Of a DNA stretch of 41,093 nt, positions 17,808 to 19,300 are shown one piece after another. Source of the DNA: Candidatus Roizmanbacteria bacterium RIFCSPLOWO2_01_FULL_41_22 (GTDB lineage: Bacteria > Patescibacteriota > Microgenomatia > UBA1406 > GWC2-37-13); assembly GCA_001789805.1 (NCBI GenBank), contig MGAR01000010.1, forward strand, positions 22,896 to 63,988, written 5' to 3'. The position numbers and the translations under genes were made by a program. The notes below the pieces were generated by a model. The model saw nothing but the letters and a program-made list of their open reading frames with translations. It made no database searches and was not told the DNA's origin. The stretch's first letter is position 1; each line of letters opens with the position of its first letter.

Positions 17808-17836
17808 TTGATATTTGTTAAACCTCTTGTTATAAT
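17808..17836 (+). promoter_or_regulatory. Strong promoter of rpmE
   Basis: TTGATA (17808-17813), a 17-bp spacer and TATAAT (17831-17836) form one of the best promoters in the window. The ATG of rpmE is 9 nt further, so the leader is about 3 nt. Confidence 0.75.
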
Positions 17837-17845
17837 GACTATCCT

Positions 17846-18142
17846 ATGAAAGCGAAAATTCATCCGGCATATTTTCAGGCAACGGTCACCTGTTCATGCG
17901 GTAACACCTTTACCGCCGGCTCTACCACAGAACATTTGACAGTTGAGGTCTGTTCTAAATGTCATCCTTTTTACACCGGCGAACAACGTTTTATCGATAC
18001 CAAGGGCAAGGTTGAGCGTTTTAATAAAAAACAAGAAATTGCCCAAGCCTATAAAATTAAATTTGGTAATAAAAAGTCTAAAAAACTAGAAAAAAGCGAT
18101 AAAAACACCAAATCGCTAAAAGAATTACTAAGCGAATCTTAA
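17846..18142 (+). CDS. rpmE: Large ribosomal subunit protein L31, zinc form
   Basis: This 98-residue L31 has the typical opening [22 protein letters not shown] and the zinc ligands C16, C18, C36, C39 (C+ type). The conserved [21 protein letters not shown] follows. A Lys-rich C-terminal extension of about 30 residues goes beyond the usual 66-70 residue L31. L31 bridges the subunits near the 5S rRNA. It has its own promoter and is separated from rplJ by a structured leader. Confidence 0.95.
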
Positions 18143-18162: not shown

Positions 18163-18190
18163 TTGCTATTTAGAATTATTTTTATATAAT
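18163..18190 (+). promoter_or_regulatory. Promoter of the rplJ-rplL operon
   Basis: TTGCTA (18163-18168), 16 bp, TATAAT (18185-18190). The predicted start is near 18197, giving an unusually long leader of about 120 nt for this genome. Confidence 0.6.
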
Positions 18191-18196
18191 ATCGTA

Positions 18197-18317
18197 TTCA
18201 CCAAAACCTCAGGCTTGTCCTCCGAAGCTTTACGCGAAGGAGGATTGTAAGAATTTTAATATTTACCTGAAATAGAGTCTTCCGAAGCTTTACGCGAAGG
18301 AGACCAAGTGAAAAACT
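18197..18317 (+). promoter_or_regulatory. Structured L10 leader with two matching hairpins
   Basis: The leader holds two exact 22-nt direct repeats (18221-18242 and 18281-18302) spaced 60 nt. Each folds alike: a UCC/GGA stem extended by differing but still pairing flanks (copy 1 GUCC with GGAU, copy 2 GUC with GAC around one bulged U), a symmetric GAA/GAA internal loop that could form tandem sheared G-A pairs, a GC/GC helix and a UUUAC loop. The 3' arm of each carries AAGGAG, a Shine-Dalgarno-like sequence, so folding would hide it. L10(L12)4 autoregulation through a leader is known in other bacteria; applying it here is inference. Confidence 0.6.
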
Positions 18318-18857
18318 ATGCCCAATCTGAAAAAACAGTCACTTCTGTCTAAAACTATCCACTCTCTGGAGGAAAGCTCCAACTTCGCTCTTGTTAAATT
18401 TGAAAAGACCAAACACATTACGTTTGAAAAGCTAAGAAGAGAGCTCAAAGCCAACAGCGCCTCTTTGACTGTCGTCAAAAATACACTTTTTCAGAAAGCC
18501 GTTAATAAACTGGTGGCCAAAAATAAACAACTTCAGACATTCCAAAAACAGGCTTTTCCTCTGCAGGAAAACACCGCGCTTCTTATTTTGAAAAATGACT
18601 GGAGCCGGGGACTGAAGACTTTTTATAACTTTATCAAAACCGAGGGGACTATCGTCTTTAAAATAGGCCATTTAGACCAGATCGTTTATCCTCAGGCTGA
18701 TTTAAAGAAAATCGCCGAGCTTCCTTCCAAGGGTGAGCTGATTGCCAAAATCATCGGTAGTATGAAAAGTCCACTTACCCGCACAACCCGAGCTTTTCAA
18801 TTTAACACACAAAAATTGGTTTACGTGTTGAGTCAAAAAGCACAAAAAGCAAGTTAA
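18318..18857 (+). CDS. rplJ: Large ribosomal subunit protein L10
   Basis: L10 anchors the L7/L12 dimers to the ribosomal stalk. The 179-residue protein has the family pattern: KTIHSLEESSNFALVKFEKTKHITFEKLRREL at residues 12-45, VVKNTLFQKAV, the mid region TALLILKNDWSRGLKTFYNF, the segment LPSKGELIAKIIGSMKSPLTR, and a C-terminal helix that binds L12. rplL follows after 38 nt. The best upstream AAGGAG is 15 nt from ATG18318, too far for ordinary use, and is better placed for a GTG at 18308 in another frame. It is read from the structured leader described separately. Confidence 0.95.
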   Translation: MPNLKKQSLLSKTIHSLEESSNFALVKFEKTKHITFEKLRRELKANSASLTVVKNTLFQKAVNKLVAKNKQLQTFQKQAFPLQENTALLILKNDWSRGLKTFYNFIKTEGTIVFKIGHLDQIVYPQADLKKIAELPSKGELIAKIIGSMKSPLTRTTRAFQFNTQKLVYVLSQKAQKAS

Positions 18858-18895: not shown

Positions 18896-19300
18896 ATGAC
18901 AAAAATAAAACTTTCCGAAAAACTAGAAAAAATCGCTAAAGAGATTGAAAGCATGACTGTTGTGGAGATGGCCGATCTGGCAAAATATCTGGAAGATAAA
19001 TTCGGCGTTTCTGCGATGCCGGCTGTGATGGCAGCACCCGCTGGAACCGCGCTTGCAGGAGGTGGAGCCGCACCAGTCGAAGAGAAGACCAACTTTGACG
19101 TCGTTTTGGCTGAAGCCGGAGCAAACAAGCTGGCCGTGATTAAAGCGGTCCGCGAAATCGTTCCCACTCTTGGACTGATGGACGCTAAAAAATTAGTCGA
19201 ATCCGCTCCAAAACCGGTCGTGGAAGGAGCAAAAAAAGAAGCCGCTCAAGAAGCTAAGAAAAAGCTTGAGGCCGCGGGAGCCAAAGTGGAATTAAAATAA
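18896..19300 (+). CDS. rplL: Large ribosomal subunit protein L7/L12
   Basis: L7/L12 forms the flexible stalk that recruits translational GTPases. The 134-residue protein has the N-terminal dimerisation helices ([30 protein letters not shown]), a hinge rich in Ala and Gly (about 40-60) and the C-terminal globular domain with [50 protein letters not shown] about 10 nt upstream is one of the few plausible ribosome binding sites in the window. Operon with rplJ. Confidence 0.97.

Follow-up and report, generated by a model that had tools for sequence, protein, structure and literature searches.

The window analyzed here is a stretch of 41,093 nt from Candidatus Roizmanbacteria bacterium RIFCSPLOWO2_01_FULL_41_22 (GCA_001789805.1, MGAR01000010.1:22,896-63,988, forward strand). 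It carries the genes for ribosomal proteins uL10 and bL12, and the structured RNA considered below lies directly 5' of this rplJ-rplL pair, which is the location of an L10 leader. The rplJ transcript probably starts near 18196, as judged from a candidate promoter ending at 18190. The features of the locus, with kink-turn positions assigned from sequence comparison, are as follows.

18163..18190, + strand: candidate sigma-70 promoter, TTGCTA-16-TATAAT, a consensus match only (10/12; about 1.6 such sites in shuffles)
18197..18201, + strand: 5' strand of the closing (C) helix, UUCAC, covarying with 18308-18312 in 60 leaders and present in the MFE fold
18202..18204, + strand: putative three-nucleotide k-turn bulge (L1-L3), CAA; CAA or UAA in 41/62 leaders
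18205..18206, + strand: putative k-turn positions 1b and 2b, AA in the window; G1b changed to A, A2b kept
18209..18213, + strand: 5' strand of the NC helix (P1), UCAGG, covarying with 18266-18270 and found by RNAalifold
18217..18245, + strand: repeat copy 1, forming the apical arm P2; variable, and dispensable as judged from the MFE fold and leader comparison
18248..18250, + strand: unpaired UAA beside the predicted k-turn stem, a known L10 recognition element (role from PMC4538822)
18266..18270, + strand: 3' strand of the NC helix (P1), CCUGA, from covariation and leader comparison
18273..18274, + strand: putative nonbulged-strand positions 2n and 1n, UA; A1n conserved
18277..18304, + strand: repeat copy 2 as the third (T) helix, placed after A1n and ahead of the closing helix
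18308..18312, + strand: 3' strand of the closing (C) helix, GUGAA, 5 nt before the AUG and overlapping the ribosome-binding region
18318..18857, + strand: rplJ (ribosomal protein uL10)
18896..19300, + strand: rplL (ribosomal protein bL12), named by sequence and gene order

Further upstream (17808-18142) is a nearly leaderless bL31-like ORF (17846-18142), with a promoter-like TTGATA-17-TATAAT plus TG immediately 5' of it.

Two hairpins built on a duplicated 22-mer

The 22-nt sequence TCCGAAGCTTTACGCGAAGGAG occurs twice without mismatch in the rplJ leader, at 18221-18242 and 18281-18302 (60 nt start to start), as a preliminary description of this DNA had reported. It is the sole + strand repeat of at least 22 nt in the 41-kb window, and the longest direct repeat was at most 13 nt in all 2000 shuffles of the 122-nt leader. 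In the MFE fold, both copies form hairpins (18217-18245 and 18277-18304) with symmetric 3x3 GAA/GAA internal loops; their outer stems differ from each other yet still pair, copy 2 requiring a one-base bulge. These parts of the earlier account stand. As for the Shine-Dalgarno-like arms that it described, the one in copy 1 (AAGGAGGA), at about 75 nt from the AUG, is unable to serve rplJ, and in copy 2 the distance from GGAG to the AUG is 15 nt. This genome has an intact 16S tail (GGATCACCTCCTTTC). Two helices absent from the preliminary description also appear in the MFE fold, pairing 18197-18201 with 18308-18312 and 18209-18213 with 18266-18270. The fold energy of the leader is ordinary (z -1.4, with 15/200 shuffles equally good) and is uninformative as evidence.

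A conserved core with the sequence of a kink-turn

We gathered the rplJ upstream regions of 57 relatives and 35 further family genomes, and 62 leaders from the family and the order (Roizmanbacteria/Microgenomates) could be parsed into one layout. This layout runs from a 5-nt closing strand through a 3-nt bulge, G1bA2b, C, a GG-ending stem, a variable arm, UAA, the complementary CC stem, an optional second arm and the other closing strand to a spacer of mostly 3-6 nt and the AUG. A2b is present in 62/62 leaders and G1b in 56/62, the exceptions being A in 4/62, the window among them, and U in 2/62. An A occupies position 1n in 43/44 leaders that have the optional arm and in 17/17 that lack it. 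By sequence, the conserved part is thus a kink-turn in which the closing helix corresponds to the C helix and the GG/CC stem to the NC helix. The elements of the kink-turn core of an L10 leader (3-nt bulge, 1b/2b, NC helix and A1n) are all recognizable from sequence and covariation; since position 1b of the window is A, its kink-turn should be weakened. UAA occurs in the loops of 62/62 leaders against about 46 expected from composition, an excess that is only modest, and pair 1 of the closing helix is missing in 25/58 distinct leaders and pair 2 in 14/58.

Because the arms differ in length, a MAFFT alignment (A1) of 30 full leaders came out too ragged to count from, and a 28-column core (A3) was substituted. 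Across this core, 90.3% of cells were paired in 60 leaders, and double-sided changes numbered 112 cells compared with 35.6 after shuffling, a count that ignores kinship. The covariation score, which likewise ignores kinship, was 0.533 compared with 0.170 for shuffled data in the 60 leaders, and was reached in 0/500 shuffles. The core positions had been picked partly by pairing, which leans toward structure, and a swap test and slid controls were therefore added. Exchanging 3' ends between leaders reduced pairing in 5000/5000 and 1000/1000 permutations, and slid partner registers scored at most 0.113. Double-sided changes are present in both helices (the fourth closing pair, for instance, is A-U, C-G or U-A), and RNAalifold recovered the NC helix unaided. 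Conservation and covariation in relatives, on which the preliminary description had staked its L10 reading, are thus both present (62 leaders; both helices covary).

A covariance model built from 16 leaders, with the window excluded (R1), matches the window at 18195-18320 with 45.6 bits (E=5.6e-8), and this leader is its single match in the source genome. Searched over whole genomes, R1 recovered leaders from roughly half of the 57 relatives: 27 matches had E <0.1 and all lie immediately 5' of rplJ, and the other three had E >0.4. Order members were matched at E 0.001-0.004. Among named records, R1 found 22/25 Microgenomates loci, such as Roizmanbacteria CP066689.1, and 0/10 loci from other phyla. 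That the leader is instead sensed by a factor other than L10, such as temperature, another ribosomal protein or an RNase, is improbable given that conservation in it falls on the L10 recognition elements and that the model matches sit 5' of rplJ.

Two rearranged leaders were also seen. In L067 (G082:C80), a 47-nt piece of the L10 leader is tandemly duplicated, and its close relative L066 has a single copy. In L011 and L163 (G022, Woesebacteria JAGQLS010000006.1), about 100 nt separate the kink-turn leader from rplJ downstream, and a short ORF (GTGATGAAGCAAAGTATG...), possibly a leader peptide, seems to come after the leader.

Relation to known L10 leaders

L10(L12)4 recognizes a kink-turn together with an unpaired UAA (Iben and Draper, via PMC4538822, PMC10931766). 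An Rfam scan of the window at gathering level and at E<=10 did not return L10_leader (RF00557; gathering cut-off 44 bits), and across the 72 family genomes the model exceeded its cut-off in none (0/72), with noise-level matches of which just two (G078, G019) fall at rplJ leaders. RF00557 does match the class relatives L045 (52.8 bits) and L049 (34.6), and L045 has the same core as the window's leader group, AAGAC..AGG..UAA..CCU..GAGG. A second model built from class leaders, the RF00557-positive L045 included (R2), detected family leaders that do not carry the extra arm (L076, E=0.0024; L070, 0.0063; L090, 0.051); run against the window, it did not detect the leader. Because R1 links the window to the order and R2 reaches the family leaders, the window is counted, by this chain of sequence models, as an L10 leader connected through intermediates and past the reach of the Rfam model.

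The likeness to RF00557 and the Bacillus subtilis rplJL leader (PMC4538822) comprises the gene, the AAGAC strand with C, bulge and GA, the ..AGG/CCU.. NC helix, the unpaired UAA and GA on the 3' strand. The differences are that the closing helix here is longer, has another sequence and adjoins the AUG, that an antiterminator/terminator is lacking, that an extra third helix is present and that the Rfam model misses this leader.

Among 60 rplJ upstream regions from other families of the class, most carry CCNAAGACAGYAGG...UAA...CCURCCGAGG followed by a terminator that is often built on CCUCGG; from their sequence, these terminator-bearing forms in most other class families are attenuators. Roughly 8/60 lack a terminator and have the core beside the AUG (L104, L109, L128, L133, L136, L145, L150, L153), a number counted by reading, as automatic terminator classing of the class set is rough. 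In L046, L047 and L126, also from other class families, the attenuator terminator seems to be complementary to the 5' k-turn strand, not the 3' one (GUCUUCGG with CCGAAGAC), a second antiterminator design.

Attenuation by L10(L12)4 in the B. subtilis style could be considered for the window as well, given that the same k-turn precedes a CCUCGG...UUUUU terminator in most other class families. However, no terminator-like site was found between 17780 and 18420, and the core ends 5 nt from the AUG, which makes this reading very hard to credit here.

Variable arms and their origin

The preliminary description had proposed that each repeated hairpin is an L10(L12)4 site, giving a tandem two-site autoregulator. 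An identical hairpin pair does stand in the rplJ leader, and the relative L005 likewise has one tip in both arms. Yet the leader contains just one predicted k-turn and one UAA-bearing junction, and neither the k-turn nor the UAA lies in a repeated hairpin. The arms vary in sequence among relatives: T is missing in 17/62 leaders and P2 in several, where it has shrunk to a loop of 13-16 nt, but the single core persists. The two-site version is thus not supported and is held to be extremely improbable, and comparison of the leaders identifies both hairpins as variable, dispensable and replaceable side arms of one conserved RNA core.

The arm sequences have a wider distribution of their own. The tip GAAGCTTTA(N)CGAAG was found at 42 sites in 22/72 family genomes, at unrelated loci and with differing outer stems, compared with 0 for the reversed control. 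The question raised earlier of whether the repeat is a dispersed element thus has a divided answer: it is dispersed across the family, but a search of the source genome for the variant tip returned just the two leader arms. IS200/RAYT-type transposases are present in several tip carriers; Y1-type transposases were found in 4/6 genomes tested, and none was found in the source genome. Arms sharing at least 10 nt were about 20x commoner within leaders (4/35) than in cross-leader comparisons (7/1190). The arms thus probably derive from short palindromes homogenised within a leader. Separately, the P2 arm of L015 (G035:C4) consists of three tandem copies of the palindrome CCCTGAGCGTAGTCGAAGGG, another dispersed-type repeat at the same place.

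These data also bear on whether the leader is simply dispersed palindromic (REP-like) DNA that landed here by chance and has no regulatory meaning. The dispersed tips, the transposases in several carriers and the excess of within-leader sharing favor such an origin for the arms, but it does not account for the conserved, covarying core, and the source genome has the tip only in this leader and no Y1 transposase that we could find. As a full account, REP-like DNA is ruled out by the core covariation and we regard it as highly unlikely; it remains the likely source of the arm sequences.

A third helix on the nonbulged strand

A hairpin on the nonbulged strand is present in 45/62 leaders, including the window, and absent in 17/62; its mean MFE is -8.3 compared with -3.0 for shuffled sequences. 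It lies between A1n and the closing helix, opposite the loop, which is the topology of a k-junction as known from TPP riboswitches and DUF-3268 (PMC4005666, PMC10573300). As in those RNAs, A1n and A2b are kept, and as in DUF-3268 there is no nucleotide between 1b and 2b. At the sheared-pair positions G1b·A1n and A2b·G2n, the leaders mostly have G1b, with A in the window, and 2n is G, U or A. Unlike the TPP riboswitch and DUF-3268 examples, this is a ribosomal protein leader near a start codon, and a plain k-turn form exists in the same RNA family. L7Ae does not fold known k-junctions (PMC10573300), and a third helix could accordingly hinder a protein.

The extra arm was absent from the order-level outgroups (f2). 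Mapped on the L10 tree, its presence requires 7 changes, of which at least 4 are forced by well-supported branches, and the sister genomes L022 and L086 differ in whether they have it. We tentatively propose, at a little under an even chance, that in Roizmanbacteria and relatives a palindromic hairpin on the nonbulged strand has repeatedly been gained or lost, turning the L10 site from a plain kink-turn into a k-junction or back while L10 regulation was maintained. With A at 1b, a kinked fold is less well supported for the window copy. A real but lesser possibility is that this is a true L10 leader with occlusion in which the third hairpin merely extends the junction and the window copy, having lost G1b, is not a kinked k-junction. 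The window's own 1b fits that alternative, as does the free gain and loss of an arm that is thus not needed, whereas the retention of A1n (43/44) and A2b (62/62), the two most conserved k-junction nucleotides, speaks against it.

Proposed mechanism of start-site occlusion

The GUGAA closing strand ends 5 nt before the rplJ AUG. Across the window's order no terminator follows the core, and the closing helix falls on the ribosome-binding region. In many leaders, GUGA(U) complements the 16S tail with an aligned spacing of 7-10 nt, and the Shine-Dalgarno sequence is weak in most of the 62-leader group. In L042-L044 (family f3), an ordinary Shine-Dalgarno sequence, GGAGA, serves as the closing strand of the k-turn, which makes the occlusion design explicit.

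From the observed structure, conservation, covariation, position and missing terminator-like site, we infer a mechanism involving L10 binding, an occlusion step and a three-dimensional k-junction. The segment 18197-18312 would be a lineage-specific L10 leader whose kink-turn and unpaired UAA form one predicted L10(L12)4 site. L10(L12)4 in excess of 23S rRNA would bind the leader and lock the kink-turn, so that the C helix closes and initiation is blocked for rplJ and the coupled rplL. When there is no such excess, the short, A/U-rich C helix would open and allow the ribosome to load; a terminator would play no part. Copy 1 would cap the NC helix and copy 2 would form the third helix on the nonbulged strand, a k-junction by topology, with arm sequences drawn from short dispersed palindromes and homogenised within the leader. 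We hold this overall account, a one-site L10 kink-turn leader that occludes the rplJ start and bears the hairpins as accessory arms, to be likely, and by analogy L10 probably blocks its own start codon directly through this leader. The preliminary proposal of an L10 autoregulatory leader is to this extent upheld by comparison: conservation, covariation, specificity for rplJ and a core in common with RF00557 members of the class all favor it.

The best-known L10 leaders work otherwise. That of Bacillus acts by attenuation, and in E. coli rplJL, where the mechanism is not settled, the L10 site lies a long way from the ribosome-binding site (PMC10931766, PMC4538822). The leader described here resembles the Escherichia coli one in its L10(L12)4 kink-turn site and expected translational control and differs in that the predicted site overlaps the start region, which makes the mechanism simple and testable. 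A similar design is known from archaeal L7Ae autoregulation, in which the Shine-Dalgarno sequence lies within the C helix of a k-turn that is closed by the protein product (PMC6298567). Here, too, a k-turn C helix would carry the ribosome-binding site; unlike the archaeal case, both protein and RNA are unrelated, which points to convergent design.

By its sequence relationships, then, the leader is a variant of the known L10 leader that had been overlooked, often with an extra hairpin in the Roizmanbacteria lineage, and it is a regulatory RNA newly added for an uncultured lineage where the Rfam model finds none. Within one class, most families link the core to a terminator and others link the same core to the start codon, which makes the switch of output traceable, and close relatives with and without the third helix constitute natural pairs. 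To our knowledge, the k-junctions known so far are few and have architectural roles only. If the proposal is true, this would be the first k-junction to work as a genetic switch operated by a protein, the start site being occluded directly by the C helix.
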